Positions 42,485-49,270 of a stretch of 64,000 nt of DNA are shown here, piece after piece. This DNA is from an uncultured Flavobacteriales bacterium (lineage in GTDB: Bacteria > Bacteroidota > Bacteroidia > Flavobacteriales_D > Crocinitomicaceae). Within the stretch, counting starts at the first letter, position 1, and every line of letters starts with the position of its first letter. The stretch covers positions 1 through 64,000 of the forward strand of contig CAIZQH010000015.1 in NCBI GenBank assembly GCA_903935095.1, read 5' to 3'. The notes under the pieces are model-generated. The model was not told the origin of the DNA, made no database searches, and worked only from the letters and a program-made list of their open reading frames with translations. A program made the position numbers and the translations under genes.

Positions 42485-45451
42485 CTACGACAATTCCATA
42501 TACCGCACGTCTTGCTGAAAGGGCAATTTTTGCATCCACCCTACTTGTAAACAATAGTAAGAAAACTCTTCGGTTACTACTCCCCGCAAGTGATAAATTC
42601 CTTTTCCGTGAAAGGGAAAACGCCGCACACTCTCCGGAAAATGGACGGTGTCAATCGTGTCTCCGTTCACATCGATAAAGGTTCCGAAATTCATCAATGC
42701 TCCTCTTGCTGTCTTGGATTGTTTGATGGCCACCAAATACCCAAATAATTCGACGGTCATTCCCAGTAACGATTCCATTTCAACCGCCTTCACATGCTGC
42801 GCCGGGAGCACTGATTGAAGCAAGCGAAAAGGATTACACAGGGGAAATCCCATTAATTCCATTTGCTCAAAGGACGCCTCTTCCTCCTGCTCTTCCAAGT
42901 CTGGTAGCTCAAAATGACGCGAACGAACCTCAAACAATTCGATGCTTCGGTCCCGTTGTGGATTTTTATGGTGGTGAAAATGTGCTTTCCACAACAATTC
43001 CTTACGCTTCTCTGGAAAATCACGCAGCGCTCCAATGCGAATCAACAGCGATGTTTGCTCCAATGGAACATGCACACGACGGACAAAATCTTCAAAGTCA
43101 CGGAATTCCCCCGCACGATCGCGTTCCTCCAAAATCTTCAAGACCAATGACGCTTCAATTCCTGCAACCAAATTGAATCCAAGAATTAATGTATTCCCCG
43201 ACAGCACACACTCATAGGAACCATGATTCACTGACGGAGCCTCAATCTCCGCTCCAAAACGCCGCGCTTCGTGCACATAGATTTCTGTTCGGTAATAGCC
43301 CCCGAAATTATTGATCGTCGCCGTCATGTATTCCAATGGATAATGCGCCTTCAAGTACAAACTTTGGTAACTTTCCACCGCATACGAAGCGGAATGTCCC
43401 TTCGAAAAGGCATAGCCCGCAAAACTCTCAATCTGACGCCAGACATCCATCGTCAATTTCTGATCGTATCCTTTTTTTGTACAATTGCCAACGAACTGTT
43501 CCTGAACACGCAGAAATTCCTCCCTCGAACGAAATTTACCAGACATTCCTCTCCGCAGGACATCCGCCTCTGCTAAACTGAGTCCAGCAAAGTGATGTGC
43601 GACTTTGATGACATCTTCCTGATACACCATCACCCCATACGTTTCTGGCATAATTTCGAGTAAAATCGGATGTGCTTCTTTCCGACGTTCTGGATTTCGG
43701 TGACGCAAAATATACTCCCGCATCATTCCCGACTGCGCAACTCCCGGACGTATAATCGAACTCGCAGCCACCAATTCAAGGTACGTCTCGACTTTTAATT
43801 TGGACATCAACATCCGCATGGCGGGCGATTCTACGTAAAAACAACCAAGTGCTTTTCCAACCAACAACAACTGACGGACTTTTTCATCCTGCTTAAAATG
43901 CGCCACATCGTGAATGTCGTGCGGTGGTTCTTCGGGACGATTGTACGCAATCACCTCCAAGCAATCGTGAATTTTCCCGAGTCCACGCTGACTCAAAATA
44001 TCGAACTTATACAAGCCAACATCCTCCGCTTCCATCATTGAAAACTGTGTAGTTGGATACCCTTTTGGCGGTAAAAAAGTCGCGGAATACCAGGTCATTG
44101 GACGCTCGCTGATCACAATTCCTCCCGAATGTACACTCAAATGCGAGGGCAATCCCTGAATGTACTTGCTGTAACGCAAAACCAAGCGCGAGAATTGGTC
44201 CAACTTGTCGAATTGAAACTTCCCACTACTCAAGGTATCAATTTCCGATTTCGGCAAACCAAAGACCTTTCCCAATTCCCGAATAGTCGCCCGATACTGA
44301 AAGGTATTGTAGGTACACAGCCATGCGGTATGTGGATAACGTTCAAACAAATAGCGTACAATATCATCGCGATCCTTCCACGAGAAGTCAATGTCAAAAT
44401 CCGGTGGATTCTTGCGATACAGGTTAATGAAACGCTCAAAATACAGGTCCAATTCGAGCGGATCAACGTCCGTAATGCGTAGCAAATACGCCACGATGCT
44501 ATTCGCCCCACTCCCGCGTCCGACATGAAAATATCCTTTAGATCGCGCATACGAGGTAAAGTCCCACGTGATGAGAAAATAAGACAAGTAATGCTTCTCT
44601 GCGATGACTTCAATCTCCATCTCAATGCGCTCAATGATTTCATCCGTCACGACTTTGTAGCGGTAATCGAGTCCTTCTGCACAGAGTTCTTTGAGCAAGT
44701 TGCGATCTCCGTCAATCGTTCCGGTATACGTCGTTGGATTTTGAGGCTTGGCATCGTCACCGAACTCAAAGTTCACGCGGCAACGTCCAAACAAGGCTTC
44801 GGTACGCTCAATGATTTCTGGGTACTCGGAAACGCCGGCAGCAAGCGGAGCTTCTTTCCATTCTTGGTAGGAAATAAAACGTTCGTTCTCATCCGCCTGA
44901 TCTTCTTTTTCCAACTTCGACAGCAAGCAATTGTGGTCAATGGCTCGAAGCAAACGGTGTGCGTTAAAATCCGCCTTCGATTGAAAGACCATTGATTGCA
45001 GCGCGAGCAACTTCCCTCTCGGAACCTTCTTGTATTTTATGTTTAAGTAAACTAATTCAGATAGCTGTATTTCAATGTATTCGTGTTCTTTTAGTTTCGC
45101 TGGATACTGCTCAATCGAATAACACACATAGCAACTTGAAAAGTGCGGCAAAACCCTTGGAAAAGGGATTTTTCGGTGAATAAACTGACTTAAAAACACA
45201 TTCAATTCATTCAATCCATGATTGTTTCGCGCAATCACCGTCGCGATTTTCTCACGTTCATTGCGCAGCTCCACACCCACCACTGGAAGAATTCCTTTCC
45301 GTTGCGCTTCCCGCACAAAAGCAAGCACGGCACCTGTCGAATTGATGTCCGCCAAGAAAACATAGGGATAGCCGCTATCCGCTGCCCATTGGACAATGGC
45401 TTCCGGAGAATGAATGCCATACTTCAAACTAAAATGAGACTTCGTTTTCAT
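42485..45451 (-). CDS. dnaE2: Error-prone type DNA polymerase III alpha subunit (DnaE2/ImuC-like)
   Basis: A 988-residue C-family polymerase, much shorter than a replicative Bacteroidota DnaE. The N-terminal PHP domain looks degenerate (LADINST where active PHP domains have LTDHG). The palm has GRGSGANSIVAYLLRITDVDPLELDLYFERF and the catalytic aspartates in PPDFDIDF, and a finger/little-finger region with YQEDVIKVA, FSKGHSASYA and a helix-hairpin-helix follow. A C-terminal OB domain remains, but the tau-binding tail is absent. It lies 12 bases after dinB, so both probably act together in mutagenic translesion repair. No imuA or imuB is present. Confidence 0.85.
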   Translation of the reverse strand: MKTKSHFSLKYGIHSPEAIVQWAADSGYPYVFLADINSTGAVLAFVREAQRKGILPVVGVELRNEREKIATVIARNNHGLNELNVFLSQFIHRKIPFPRVLPHFSSCYVCYSIEQYPAKLKEHEYIEIQLSELVYLNIKYKKVPRGKLLALQSMVFQSKADFNAHRLLRAIDHNCLLSKLEKEDQADENERFISYQEWKEAPLAAGVSEYPEIIERTEALFGRCRVNFEFGDDAKPQNPTTYTGTIDGDRNLLKELCAEGLDYRYKVVTDEIIERIEMEIEVIAEKHYLSYFLITWDFTSYARSKGYFHVGRGSGANSIVAYLLRITDVDPLELDLYFERFINLYRKNPPDFDIDFSWKDRDDIVRYLFERYPHTAWLCTYNTFQYRATIRELGKVFGLPKSEIDTLSSGKFQFDKLDQFSRLVLRYSKYIQGLPSHLSVHSGGIVISERPMTWYSATFLPPKGYPTTQFSMMEAEDVGLYKFDILSQRGLGKIHDCLEVIAYNRPEEPPHDIHDVAHFKQDEKVRQLLLVGKALGCFYVESPAMRMLMSKLKVETYLELVAASSIIRPGVAQSGMMREYILRHRNPERRKEAHPILLEIMPETYGVMVYQEDVIKVAHHFAGLSLAEADVLRRGMSGKFRSREEFLRVQEQFVGNCTKKGYDQKLTMDVWRQIESFAGYAFSKGHSASYAVESYQSLYLKAHYPLEYMTATINNFGGYYRTEIYVHEARRFGAEIEAPSVNHGSYECVLSGNTLILGFNLVAGIEASLVLKILEERDRAGEFRDFEDFVRRVHVPLEQTSLLIRIGALRDFPEKRKELLWKAHFHHHKNPQRDRSIELFEVRSRHFELPDLEEQEEEASFEQMELMGFPLCNPFRLLQSVLPAQHVKAVEMESLLGMTVELFGYLVAIKQSKTARGALMNFGTFIDVNGDTIDTVHFPESVRRFPFHGKGIYHLRGVVTEEFSYYCLQVGWMQKLPFQQDVRYMELS

Positions 45452-45463
45452 AAAAGAGAATAC

Positions 45464-46681
45464 TTACACACGTCGATTTGCGAGCAACATCGGCGGTTCT
45501 CCATTAAATGGATTATGGTGTCCGATCGTACGCGCCTCCATACCAATTGCCCGAATCACCGCTCGGTCACCGTAGCGCACCCGAATCTGATCCAGCGCTT
45601 TATACAGCGAAGCAAAATGCGTGTCGTTATCAAACAAGTTCAACTGGTGATGTCCAGAAACCAAGGAACTAAAGCGAATGCCAATGAGTCGAACCAGTAG
45701 GCGTCGGTTGTAAATGCGCTTAAACAATTCCGTAACGACCGGCAACAACTCATGATCTGCTGCGGTGTACGCAATTTGCTTTTGGAGTGTCTGCGTTTGA
45801 AAGTCAGAATAGCGAATTTTAACCGTTACACAGCCCGTCAGCTTCATTCCTCTGCGCAACTGAAAAGCTAAATTCTCCGCCATGGCAGCGAGGATTCCAT
45901 TCAACTTCACGACATCAATCGTATCTTGATCGAAGGTTCGTTCAGTGGAAATAGACTTCCGCTCGTTGTATTGTTCCACGGGGGAATGATCGATTCCTTG
46001 AGCTTTTTTCCAGATACTCACGCCATTCATTCCCAGCGCCCCTTCCATCATCTCCATCGGCATTTCCTGCACTGTTTTGATTTTCCGCACACCAAGATTG
46101 CACAAGGTTTGATAGGTCTTGGTTCCCACCATCGGAATTTTCTTCACGGACAAGGGCGCCAAAAAATCGCGTTCCGTCCCGTAGTCGACGTGAATTTGAT
46201 TGTTCGGTTTTGCTTCACCGGTAGCAATTTTGGACACTGTTTTATTCTGCGACAAGCCAAAGGAGATGGGTAATCCCGTTTCCTTCAGGATACGCTGACG
46301 CAGTTCTCCCGCATACTTAAAGGTACCGAAGAAGCGGTCCATTCCCGTGAAATCAATGTAGAATTCATCGATGGACATTTTCTCATACACGGGAACAGCC
46401 TCGCGGATGATTTCAGTTACATCGCGCGAGTATCCACTATACGTTTGTGTATTCCCCTTAATGACAATGGCTTCCGGACATCTTTCCCTCGCCATTTTCA
46501 TCGGCATGGCGGAATGAATTCCAAACTGCCTTGCCTCATAGCTACAGGAAGCAACCACTCCTCGGTCACTTGTCCCGCCAATCAAAATGGGTTTTCCAAC
46601 TAAACGACTATCTAATAAACGTTCACAGGAGACAAAAAACGTGTCTAGGTCCATGTGAACAATCGAACGCAATACTGACAT
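45464..46681 (-). CDS. dinB: DNA polymerase IV (Y-family, DinB)
   Basis: A 405-residue translesion polymerase. The palm motifs HMDLDTFFVSCE and SIDEFYIDFTG hold the three catalytic acids. SYEARQFGIHSAMP is the finger motif. The thumb contains GLSQNKTVSKIATGEAKPN and a helix-hairpin-helix (KIPMVGTKTYQTLCNLGVRKIKTVQEM), then the little-finger domain. A beta-clamp-binding peptide QLNLF lies near residue 345. It is the first gene of the minus-strand set dinB, dnaE2, VOC and the two-helix protein. The ATG at 46681 was preferred to a TTG two codons upstream. No SOS box was identified. Confidence 0.92.
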   Translation of the reverse strand: MSVLRSIVHMDLDTFFVSCERLLDSRLVGKPILIGGTSDRGVVASCSYEARQFGIHSAMPMKMARERCPEAIVIKGNTQTYSGYSRDVTEIIREAVPVYEKMSIDEFYIDFTGMDRFFGTFKYAGELRQRILKETGLPISFGLSQNKTVSKIATGEAKPNNQIHVDYGTERDFLAPLSVKKIPMVGTKTYQTLCNLGVRKIKTVQEMPMEMMEGALGMNGVSIWKKAQGIDHSPVEQYNERKSISTERTFDQDTIDVVKLNGILAAMAENLAFQLRRGMKLTGCVTVKIRYSDFQTQTLQKQIAYTAADHELLPVVTELFKRIYNRRLLVRLIGIRFSSLVSGHHQLNLFDNDTHFASLYKALDQIRVRYGDRAVIRAIGMEARTIGHHNPFNGEPPMLLANRRV

Positions 46682-46819
46682 GATCAAAAAGATTAAAGTA
46701 AATGCGTGCTATCGTTGGTCCAACAAAGTTACTAAAATGATTAGATATTCATCTTTTATTTTGATGATATTTTAATCATATTGATATTTTTCACTAAATT
46801 CAATAGAAAAAAAAGAAAG

Positions 46820-47323
46820 ATGGAACTAACAACAATCAAAAACAGCATTCACGAAATCAGGGGAAAACGCGTCATTCTTGATTATGAATTGGCGAAAATG
46901 TATGAAGTAGAAACGCGTGTATTAAAACAAGCCGTCCGCAGAAACATCGATCGATTTCCGGAAGATTTTATGTTTGAACTGACAGAAGAGGAAATGAAAA
47001 ACTTGACATCACAAATTGTGATGTCAAGTTGGGGAGGTACCAGACATGTAATATTCGCTTTCACAGAACAAGGAATAGCCATGCTATCAAGTGTACTAAA
47101 AAGTAAATTGGCCATTCAAATCAACATTTCCATCATGCGTGCATTTGTGATGATGCGTCAATGGAGCCTCACCTATCATGAACTAGCGGAGCGATTAGAC
47201 GAGTTGGAACGTAAACACGGACAGCGCTTTGATGGCATTGAACAAGTGTTAAATTACTTTATACAGAAAGACAAACAAAGCGCTCAGCAGAATCAAAGAA
47301 AACAAGTGGGGTATAATAAATAA
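46820..47323 (+). CDS. ORF6N-domain DNA-binding protein, copy 1
   Basis: A 167-residue protein whose N-terminal 90 residues are an ORF6N domain (VILDYELAKMYEVETRVLKQAVRRNIDRFPEDFMFELT, then SSWGGTRHVIFAFTEQGIAMLS), a fold found in phage and bacterial DNA-binding proteins. The C-terminal half is a helical, coiled-coil-like oligomerisation region (LTYHELAERLDELERKHGQRFDGIEQVL). The target is unknown. It is the first of three tandem paralogues. Its stop overlaps the next start by one base. A perfect 31-bp palindrome lies in its coding sequence at 47000-47030. Confidence 0.85.
   Translation: MELTTIKNSIHEIRGKRVILDYELAKMYEVETRVLKQAVRRNIDRFPEDFMFELTEEEMKNLTSQIVMSSWGGTRHVIFAFTEQGIAMLSSVLKSKLAIQINISIMRAFVMMRQWSLTYHELAERLDELERKHGQRFDGIEQVLNYFIQKDKQSAQQNQRKQVGYNK
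47000..47030. other. Intragenic palindrome in ORF6N copy 1
   Basis: AACTTGACATCACAA, a single A, then its exact reverse complement: 15-bp arms, 31 bases in all, inside codons for NLTSQIVMSSW. Confidence 0.95.
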
Positions 47324-47811
47324 TGGAATTAACAACAATCAAAAACAGCATTCACGAAATCAGGGGAAAACGCGTCATTCTTGATTATGAATTGGCGAAA
47401 ATGTATGAAGTAGAAACGCGTGTATTAAAACAAGCCGTGCGCAGAAACATCGATCGATTTCCGGAAGATTTTATGTTTGAACTTAGTTTAGATGAAATGA
47501 AAAACTTGGTATCACAAAATGTGATACCATCATTAAAATATTTCGGTGGAGCTAAGGTTTATGCATTTTCAGAGCAAGGGGTGGCCATGCTATCAAGTGT
47601 GCTCAAAAGTAAATTGGCCATCATGCGCGCCTTTGTCATGATTCGACAATGGGCATTCACGCACCAGGAACTTTCCGAGAAGTTAACAGCGCTTGAAAAA
47701 CAACACCAGCAAAAATTCAAGGACATCGATCAAGTGCTCACGTATTTACTGCAAAAAGATCAGACTAAAATCAAACTAGCACCAAGAGAAAAAGTGGGCT
47801 ATAAAAAATAA
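47323..47811 (+). CDS. ORF6N-domain DNA-binding protein, copy 2
   Basis: A 162-residue paralogue. Its first 160 bases differ from copy 1 at only about two positions, while its last 190 bases are nearly identical to copy 3, so it looks like a recombinant of the two. It lacks a five-residue stretch present in both neighbours (after SKLAI, where copies 1 and 3 have QINIS or an equivalent), which shortens a helix. The ORF6N domain and the C-terminal coiled-coil part are otherwise kept. The start overlaps the copy 1 stop (TAATG). It has its own palindrome at 47507-47529. Confidence 0.82.
   Translation: MELTTIKNSIHEIRGKRVILDYELAKMYEVETRVLKQAVRRNIDRFPEDFMFELSLDEMKNLVSQNVIPSLKYFGGAKVYAFSEQGVAMLSSVLKSKLAIMRAFVMIRQWAFTHQELSEKLTALEKQHQQKFKDIDQVLTYLLQKDQTKIKLAPREKVGYKK
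47507..47529. other. Intragenic palindrome in ORF6N copy 2
   Basis: TGGTATCACA, AAA, TGTGATACCA: perfect 10-bp arms at the same codon position as the palindrome of copy 1 but with two compensating base changes in each arm. Confidence 0.93.
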
Positions 47812-48318
47812 ATGATGGAATTAACAACAATCAAAAACAGCATTCACGAAATCAGAGGAAAGAAAGTCATACTTGACTTTGAATTAGCCAAAATGTATCA
47901 AGTGGAAACAAAATACCTAAAAAGAACGGTAAGAAATCATTTGAAGAGATTTCCATCAGATTTCATGTTTGAGTTAAGCAATGATGAGTGGAATGACTTG
48001 AGGTGCAAAAACAGCACCACAAGTTGGGGTGGACAACGCTATCTTCCATTTGCATTTACCGAGCAAGGAGTCGCCATGTTAAGCGGCTTGCTCAATTCTG
48101 ATTTGGCCATTGAAATGAACATAGCCATCATGCGCGCCTTTGTCATGATTCGACAATGGGCATTCACGCACCAGGAACTTTCCGAGAAGTTGACGGCGCT
48201 TGAAAAACAACACCAGCAAAAATTCAAGGACATCGATCAAGTGCTCACGTATTTACTGCAAAAAGATCAGGCTAAAATCAAACCAGCACCAAGAGAAAAA
48301 GTGGGGTATAAAATATGA
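47812..48318 (+). CDS. ORF6N-domain DNA-binding protein, copy 3
   Basis: A 168-residue paralogue (167 if the second ATG at 47815 is used). The DNA-binding half differs more from copies 1 and 2 (KVILDFELAKMYQVETKYLKRTVRNHLKRFPSDFMFELS) and has TTSWGGQRYLPFAFTEQGVAML. The C-terminal half is almost identical to copy 2 at DNA level. It starts directly after the copy 2 stop. It carries a third, different palindrome at 47996-48024. The three genes appear to be one transcript. Confidence 0.83.
   Translation: MMELTTIKNSIHEIRGKKVILDFELAKMYQVETKYLKRTVRNHLKRFPSDFMFELSNDEWNDLRCKNSTTSWGGQRYLPFAFTEQGVAMLSGLLNSDLAIEMNIAIMRAFVMIRQWAFTHQELSEKLTALEKQHQQKFKDIDQVLTYLLQKDQAKIKPAPREKVGYKI
47996..48024. other. Intragenic palindrome in ORF6N copy 3
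   Basis: ACTTG-A-GGTGC, a 7-base loop, GCACC-A-CAAGT: ten of eleven positions pair. It is at the same codon position as in copies 1 and 2. The outer ACTTG/CAAGT matches copy 1, but the inner arm is unrelated. Confidence 0.85.
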
Positions 48319-48326
48319 ACTAAAAC

Positions 48327-48347
48327 AGTAGAAGTCCCCTACTTTTT
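48327..48347 (+). terminator. Weak hairpin after the ORF6N genes
   Basis: AGTAG/CTACT with a 7-base loop followed by TTTT, about 10 bases after the third ORF6N stop. The stem is short, so termination efficiency is doubtful. Confidence 0.35.
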
Positions 48348-48535
48348 AACATCAAGTATTTAGAGCGAATTCGTCCTTTATTCGATGATTGATGAAATAT
48401 TTTTCTATTTTTATAAATCGTTGATCAATGAGGCATAGCAAACAGATGGATGTTGAGCTTAAGAGAATTCATGAGGGGTATAAGTAAGTTATAACCAATG
48501 GTTAGAAGTAAAAATAGAGAACTACAAAAAATCCA

Positions 48536-49270
48536 ATGATAAATTATACACCGACAATTAGTTATAAATCAAGATTATTTATACTGATTATTTGCCTTAC
48601 TTTTATGGTGTCTTGCACCGTAACTAATAATTTGTATGTTACCAATCCCAACCCAATGGGCAAAGGGAATTCGGAGGGTTATTTGGGCATAGGTGCCGGT
48701 GTGAAAGCAAAAATAGATTCGATAAACAATACTACTGGCAAAATATCTTTTACAAATAAGATTTCAAACGCTCCTATTTTATCAGTAGGTGGGCAATGGG
48801 GTGTTTCGAATCAAACAGATGTCAGGTTTGCATTGCATTTACCATATGTTCTTGGTGGCGTGGGTCTACGGGCGGGGTTACAACATAGTTTTATGGATCC
48901 TAGTGCAAAGATGAATTTTGCAATTGGCTTTGATTTAGGAGTTGTTTTTGCTAAAGATTCCATAGAAATATTTGGCTCAAAAAGTTCTTTGTATAGAGAA
49001 ACCAATGGAGGATTAAACGCTGATATTTTTATTCCATTTGGTGTTAATCTAAAAAAAGATATTTCAATAATTCTTACACCCCGATATAGTTTCAATAGAA
49101 TATATATTCGTGAATTTCAATTAAATAATAACACCTCTAATTTTAATTTTGGATACCCAGCATTATCTATAGGGATTAGGAAAAGGCAATTTTATTTTGA
49201 AACAACCGCCATTTACTACGACAGACAGGTTTTCCCACTTTTTGGTATAGTTATATTATTCAAAAACTAA
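48536..49270 (+). CDS. Outer-membrane lipoprotein-like protein, unknown
   Basis: A 244-residue protein with a type II signal (FILIICLTFMVSC, lipobox MVSC near residue 27), then a Gly-rich start and alternating amphipathic strands (for example GISVGGQWGVSNQTDVRFALHLPY-like and LSIGIRKRQFYFETTAIYYD) that suggest a small outer-membrane beta-barrel. No family is recognised. It is AT-rich, follows the ORF6N set after about 215 bases, and is followed 31 bases later by the first attC-like palindrome. It may therefore be the first cassette of the array, though no site was found upstream of it. Confidence 0.6.
   Translation: MINYTPTISYKSRLFILIICLTFMVSCTVTNNLYVTNPNPMGKGNSEGYLGIGAGVKAKIDSINNTTGKISFTNKISNAPILSVGGQWGVSNQTDVRFALHLPYVLGGVGLRAGLQHSFMDPSAKMNFAIGFDLGVVFAKDSIEIFGSKSSLYRETNGGLNADIFIPFGVNLKKDISIILTPRYSFNRIYIREFQLNNNTSNFNFGYPALSIGIRKRQFYFETTAIYYDRQVFPLFGIVILFKN

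Follow-up and report, generated by a model that had tools for sequence, protein, structure and literature searches.

The window analysed in this study, a stretch of 64,000 nucleotides from an uncultured Flavobacteriales bacterium, contains at positions 46820–48318 three ORF6N genes in tandem, each of which harbors one palindrome at the same codon position, and the question raised by this locus is what such palindromes are retained for inside coding DNA. Both the coordinates and the pairing of the palindromes could be confirmed in all three copies (Table 1), as could the compensated arm changes between copies 1 and 2 pointed out in the initial annotation, which fall at half-site positions 8 and 9. 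Copies 1 to 3 match the Pfam ORF6N profile PF10543 with 120.7, 108.8 and 111.1 bits, respectively, against a curated cut-off of 27.8, and KilA-N was not returned by Pfam for the copies. They also belong to PHROG anti-repressor families and to the PADLOC candidate defence family PDC-S05 (E 6.2e-55 for copy 1 and 1e-51 for copy 3); none of these entries mentions an intragenic site. The stop codon of copy 1 is overlapped by the ATG of copy 2, and the source genome contains five ORF6N matches in total. The array lies head to head with two genes on the minus strand (42485–46687) which, judging from their translations, we take to resemble a DnaE-type polymerase and a Y-family (DinB-like) polymerase.

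Table 1. Positions in the window of the ORF6N genes, their palindromes and the recognition-helix codons of copy 1
Feature	Position	Strand	Description
ORF6N copy 1	46820..47323	+	167 aa ORF; PF10543 E 3.1e-35; recognition residues R33 V34 Q37 R41
Recognition-helix codons, copy 1	46913..46942	+	residues 32-41; helix in AF2 model and code columns
Copy 1 palindrome	47000..47030	.	31 bp, perfect; arms of 15 bp each without mismatch, 47000-47014 and 47016-47030; core ATCACAA; encodes residues 61-71 (predicted loop)
ORF6N copy 2	47323..47811	+	162 aa ORF; PF10543 E 1.6e-31; recognition residues R V Q R
Copy 2 palindrome	47507..47529	.	23 bp; 10-bp arms TGGTATCACA (47507-47516) and TGTGATACCA (47520-47529), 3-nt loop (47517-47519); core ATCACA as in copy 1
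ORF6N copy 3	47812..48318	+	168 aa ORF; PF10543 E 3.2e-32; recognition residues K Y R N
Copy 3 palindrome	47996..48024	.	29 bp; 11-bp arms, 47996-48006 and 48014-48024, 10/11 paired, 7-nt loop; core GGTGC

Palindromes at one codon position across the family

ORF6N genes, mostly from Bacteroidota, were gathered from relatives, from GTDB contigs, from the phylum, and from plasmid, phage and virus records, in a sample that is skewed to relatives of copy 1 since the best matches come first. Palindromes scoring at least 10, 12 and 14 were found in 163, 120 and 71, respectively, of 283 distinct ORF6N coding segments, whereas synonymous codon permutation within each gene (20 permutations per segment, 5660 in total) reached these scores in 0.57%, 0.05% and 0 of the cases. 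The centre lies at profile column 63–64 in 146 of the 163 palindromes with a score of at least 10. The expectation voiced in the initial annotation, that this codon position should be palindromic in excess across many ORF6N genes, was thus borne out. Chance or protein constraint as the source of the palindromes is ruled out by the codon permutation. The background consisted of 154 further ORFs from these loci, all 337 ORF6N hits being excluded, and two of them score at least 10; these two are one gene in two relatives. Earlier background runs had tails of high scores, with 22 of 400 and 20 of 220 ORFs at 11 or more, the latter tail arising because duplicate ORF6N copies on overlapping loci had stayed in that background. 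The two background ORFs with high scores, at 4715 of L056 and at 3097 of L060, are the same unrelated ORF and carry a perfect palindrome with a score of 14 (CAATTTTGCACACAGTGTGTGCAAAATTG); the frame could be spurious and the DNA under it non-coding. When only the expected region was scanned, with looser settings, 246 of 278 ORFs scored at least 8; among the 32 ORFs below 8, L192 is degraded, and L207 and L222 are without a trace by eye.

The palindrome is read in two frames. Its centre lies at codon position 1 in 227 of 251 analysable genes (class A, e.g. LRSQFATSS) and at codon position 2 in the other 24 (class B, e.g. ELVANCDRF), and it stands at the same place in both classes, such that the same DNA is kept and the protein reading differs. 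The sequences of the palindromes diverge yet stay self-complementary (GGTCACAA, GGTCGCAA, GGACGCAA, GATCACAA, CATCACAA, GGTCGAAA, GGTTCCAA, GGCGCCAA, TATTCCAA and others), and each of positions 2–13 is paired in 83–99% of the 190 distinct class A palindromes, with pairing declining farther out. One could suppose that the arms resemble each other through template switching and without any selection, or that the palindrome is a product of protein constraint and chance, and it is true that the arms are often perfect and their changes paired. However, the palindrome is lost in synonymous permutations, one and the same DNA serves two reading frames, and the bases track the recognition helix, whose codons lie farther upstream in the gene, as described in the next section, so that we regard this explanation as having next to no probability. 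Outside Bacteroidota, plasmid genes with the site were found in Spirochaetota (L147), Campylobacterota (L146), Pseudomonadota (L145, L149 and L153) and Bacillota (L148), some of them mismatched. For a gene from Fusobacteriota (L144), the best palindrome was located elsewhere in one scan, and the expected site scores 7 in the looser scan.

Half-site bases and residues of the N-terminal helix

In an AF2 model of copy 1 (92 sequences; mean pLDDT 82), helices are predicted at residues 21–28 and 32–41 with a short turn between them, which would correspond to a helix-turn-helix-like layout. The residues encoded by the palindrome, 61–71, fall within a predicted coil (63–78) or at its edge, and the mean pLDDT for residues 61–70 is 62. 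Searching the PDB gave no match at E 0.001 by fold and no meaningful match by sequence (best E 0.49), and among the best fold matches to viral proteins several bear the names KilA-N, antirepressor or regulatory protein.

We scored a half-site base only where both arms agree, and calculated its mutual information with all N-terminal domain columns filled to 80% or more, residues being numbered as in copy 1. The entropy of base 4 is explained to 0.97 by residue 37 and to 0.90 by residue 34 (next column 0.23), and that of base 5 to 0.93 and 0.73 by the same two residues (next column 0.30). For base 7 the value is 0.89 with residue 33 (next column 0.31), and for base 3 it is 0.70 with residue 41 (next column 0.53). 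Residues 33, 34, 37 and 41 are all within helix 32–41 of the model. In class A, base 4 is A with Q37 (111/114 genes), G with E37 (74/75), and C with R37 (22/24) or K37 (6/6), whereas base 5 is C with Q37 (111/114) or E37 (75/75), T with K37 (6/6) and G with R37 (18/24, the six others being unpaired). Base 7 is G with K33 in 133 of 133 genes and A with R33 in 48 of 78 (28 unpaired, 2 with G), and base 3 is C with R41 (198/206) and A with N41 (11/18, 7 unpaired). In class B, base 4 is G with E (13/13), A with Q (8/8) and unpaired with R (3/3), base 7 is G with K33 (19/19) and A with R33 (3/5), and base 3 is C with R41 (21/21) and A with N41 (3/3). Arginine and lysine prefer contacts with G, glutamine and asparagine with A, and glutamate with C, and the code fits these common residue–base preferences. 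In class A, base 4 of the left arm occupies the third position of a codon, which in the listed genes usually encodes Ser or Thr, and a change there is mostly silent; yet this base is A in 112 of the 114 genes with Q and G in 74 of the 75 with E. Protein–protein coevolution as the cause of the code is out, because the other frame shows the same code and one base is usually silent. The notion, contained in the initial annotation, that selection holds the pairing and not the sequence needs correcting in that the pairing is not all that is held, half-site bases 3, 4, 5 and 7 being tied to residues of the recognition helix. In the source genome, the two ORF6N genes besides the array are L002, which combines K R E R with GGACGCAA, and L005, which combines K R E N with GGTCGAAA; together with copies 1 to 3 they all fit the code, all five being within the set from which it was built.

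Over all 251 genes, bases 4 and 5 are each as coded in 234, contradicted in 1 and unpaired in 8, the residue being outside the code in the remaining 8; the corresponding numbers are 203, 4, 28 and 16 for base 7 and 233, 4, 11 and 3 for base 3. Among 67 representatives less than 60% identical outside the helix, they are 58, 1, 6 and 2 for base 4, 61, 1, 3 and 2 for base 5, 50, 2, 8 and 7 for base 7, and 65, 0, 0 and 2 for base 3. To control for relatedness, we compared disjoint closest pairs whose members share at least 50% identity outside the helix and are expected to differ at the base in question. Residue 37 differs in 94 such pairs; both members agree with the code at base 4 in 88 of them, 6 are unpaired and no pair contradicts it; for base 5 with the same residue, 26 pairs follow, none contradicts and 7 are unpaired. 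Base 7 with residue 33 gave 58 pairs that follow, 4 that contradict and 30 unpaired, and base 3 with residue 41 gave 11, 0 and 7. In held-out genes, mostly viral, bases 3, 4, 5 and 7 were without contradiction in two overlapping sets of 8 and 11, in which the helix was located by a text pattern that was widened between runs, with 15 and 11 frames skipped. Because of the code and the helix-turn-helix layout, we infer that this helix reads DNA.

A message hairpin, i.e. an RNA stem kept to control translation or decay, had also been suggested, and the long and often perfect arms would indeed fold in the transcript. However, Rfam gave no match up to E 1 for positions 46500–48600, and the mismatches in 146 distinct class A palindromes comprise 24 G.T against 45 A.C, that is, no excess of sense-strand wobble pairs. 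Those of the 17 class B palindromes lean the other way (11 G.T against 4 A.C), and the test as a whole is a weak one, being confounded by codon constraints. Nor does a hairpin predict that bases track the recognition helix, and we have set it aside as highly improbable mainly because the code explains the bases.

A predicted site for the protein of the same gene

The sequences themselves establish that the site exists, that it is in excess, that it covaries with the helix and that it is independent of the reading frame, and from the code together with the excess at one codon it would follow that the gene carries the recognition site of its own protein. In our view, with a probability of roughly 0.88, the ORF6N protein encoded by each gene binds DNA sequence-specifically at that gene's palindrome, a possibility raised in the initial annotation and now supported by the recognition code, the binding itself being predicted from sequence. 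Presumably, the N-terminal helix-turn-helix binds the palindrome as a two-fold symmetric dimer, in which residues 33, 34, 37 and 41 would read half-site bases 7, 4, 4–5 and 3, respectively, of a site of ~25–27 bp. The site is located ~195 bp into the gene, in codons of a predicted loop, where the protein may tolerate what the DNA needs. In the array, the copy 1 palindrome is accordingly named here as the predicted binding site of copy 1's own protein. A different specificity for each copy, as had been proposed, can be upheld for copy 3, which by its K Y R N residues and GGTGC core is predicted to be clearly different from the other two. It does not hold between copies 1 and 2, which share the recognition residues R V Q R as well as the core ATCACA and differ at the outer positions 8–9.

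Operators inside genes, such as lac O2 in lacZ and the gal internal operator in galE, are a known kind of element, as is one cognate element within a locus (BstA/aba, discussed below). Like the lac and gal sites, the ORF6N palindrome would be a repressor site within coding DNA; unlike them, since they are located in genes other than that of the regulator, it is found in the gene's own coding sequence, and this in nearly every sampled member of the family. Going by the code, ORF6N genes would have one feature of an autoregulatory intragenic operator, a cognate site in the coding sequence of the regulator itself. We found no description of intragenic sites in ORF6N genes in the open-access literature searched, and what appears to be new is that the predicted site of the gene's own product is embedded in nearly every sampled gene of a family, with the code visible. 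It would mean that a protein-to-DNA code can be obtained from sequence alone, for a domain with no solved relative found and with many natural specificity variants, and that coding sequence is dictated by a predicted DNA-binding requirement in two reading frames. ORF6N variants would also supply candidate orthogonal protein–site pairs.

Sites outside the genes and possible uses of the palindrome

Sites with the gene's own core (at most 3 mismatches in 16) were found 16 times just upstream and 20 times just downstream of ORF6N genes, whereas shuffled half-sites gave 0.2 in either place; farther from the gene there are 6, against 1.4. The 16 upstream sites have their centres 25–154 bp before the guessed start codon. 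When ORF6N-type palindromes of any core are counted, there are 20 upstream (0.36/kb), 31 downstream (0.59/kb) and 10 far from the gene (0.029/kb). At least one flanking palindrome is present in 37 of 227 genes, and 26 of the 51 flanking sites have the core of the gene they flank. No other ORF6N remnant was found at E 0.01 in 42 of the 51 flanking sites, a number that is an upper bound because the sites of L042 and L229 coincide in place with truncated copies in relatives.

The likeliest use of the palindrome is autoregulation, to which we would give somewhat less than even odds. ORF6N would occupy its own gene, and the upstream sites where these are present, and would repress transcription by roadblock or looping; control of the ORF6N gene would thereby travel with the gene. 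The enrichment of own-core sites just upstream of the start codon argues for such a use, whereas the small number of genes with an upstream site of any core (17/227), the downstream position of 31 of the 51 flanking sites and the foreign core of about half of them argue against it.

One pattern, searched with up to 3 mismatches in 12 genomes, gave 29 matches, of which 28 are in or within ~500 bp of ORF6N genes; read backwards, it gave zero matches in the same 12 genomes. The 29th match (G225:C7:277163; L297 ~1664) is a solitary ORF6N-type palindrome between two genes, in a 3.5-kb stretch with no ORF6N protein among its listed ORFs. Rickettsia palindromic elements are mobile repeats inserted in frame inside unrelated coding genes. 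The ORF6N palindromes are likewise maintained in frame within coding genes, but differ in that their matches in the 12 genomes are nearly all in or near ORF6N genes rather than unrelated ones.

In IMG/VR, three patterns were found in 21, 37 (overlapping) and 1 stretches, respectively, and one scramble of the first gave zero matches. Of 54 IMG/VR sites, 8 are in ORF6N frames, 4 are on loci with ORF6N elsewhere and 42 are on loci without it, 29 of these orphan sites having no frame of more than 100 aa across them. An ORF6N match was found in 0 of the 41 viral records with orphan sites, many of which are fragments, with some sites near-duplicates. Several individual arrangements were noted. In L299 (~850–1000), three to four palindromes with differing cores follow within ~150 bp of the stop codon of an ORF6N gene and face a convergent glycosyltransferase-like gene. 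In the viral locus L409, an ORF6N-type site precedes a gene that we take to resemble a T4-type single-strand-binding protein. A viral contig without ORF6N (L442, 4442–4525) has two palindromes with different cores, 59 bp apart, adjoining a small helix-turn-helix gene and a second, presumably RelE-like, gene.

Another explanation shares the claim of a binding site and differs in its use. ORF6N could be an anti-phage protein for which the cognate palindrome marks a molecule as self or titrates the protein, in a manner similar to BstA/aba, and elements or phages would then gain from palindromes of several specificities. We know of no defence activity of ORF6N proteins, and PDC-S05, to which they match, is a candidate family only. 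On a Treponema plasmid, on the other hand, an ORF6N gene lies between genes for a methyltransferase and a restriction subunit S, and the flanking sites with foreign cores and the viral orphan sites fit a self tag better than plain autorepression, even if the fragmentary and partly duplicate nature of the viral records weakens the latter point. BstA, whose domain is KilA-N-like, is reported to have in its own locus a cognate element that acts as DNA and confers self-immunity (PMC8585504). This element, aba, is there described as 63 bp long, overlapping the gene start and needing terminal direct repeats (CCCGCC), features unlike those of the ORF6N palindromes, and the palindromes of the window are without the CCCGCC terminal direct repeat (PMC8585504). 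Both systems have a phage-related DNA-binding protein and a cognate element in its own locus that differs between variants (for BstA, PMC8585504), cognate in the case of ORF6N by the code. They differ in that the ORF6N palindrome is ~195 bp into the gene and its bases follow a readable code, and a kinship of the proteins is not implied. On balance we rank a self tag second, behind autoregulation, as a tentative and rather unlikely use. In a more specific and still more speculative form, ORF6N and, by their layout, Bro-N and DinD could form a superfamily of small phage-related DNA-binding proteins with private passwords, in which the word embedded in each gene follows the helix and phages or rival loci collect foreign words to escape or titrate the protein; if true, such a system would distinguish self from non-self DNA by a code that can be read from the sequence. 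Either way, the function of an obscure and widespread phage-related family becomes testable, as autorepression versus self tag.

The palindrome could also be a crossover point or target by which ORF6N genes are exchanged, recombine or move, with the protein as a binding factor. The tandem arrays have near-identical ends around differing middles, and free-standing palindromes and truncated copies are found beside genes, as might be expected of such a site. However, no recombinase domain was found by Pfam in the short ORF6N proteins, and the long ones show nothing beyond a weak match to a PLD-like domain that does not reach the cut-off, which makes this use improbable. This match is located in the C-terminal part of the long variants L423 and L147 (E 0.0011 and 0.0032, under the curated cut-off), which could be a nuclease-like effector.

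Palindromes were also found in Bro-N-type ORFs of Bacteroidota (92 ORFs within the set L319–L408), of which 49 score at least 10 and 25 at least 12, against 2.0% and 0.5% of codon permutations. They are mostly directly behind the DNA-binding part, inside the coding sequence, and the proteins have two layouts, a DinD type, whose relatives are annotated dinD, and a type ending in motifs like QLVTNCNQL. Plasmid relatives of DinD gave mixed scores (Bernardetia 12, Zymomonas 11, Streptococcus 8, E. coli 6 and Aulosira 6, the last imperfect), and the one from a Thiothrix plasmid scores 5 where the motif is expected and 7 elsewhere. Rha (PF09669) is above the cut-off in 2 of 296 genomes, with one strong match (L302) whose palindrome is weak (score 6). 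For Bro-N, in small samples of 35 and 39 related genes and with kinship ignored, the mutual information between bases and helix residues is suggestive of a covariation that points the same way as in ORF6N.
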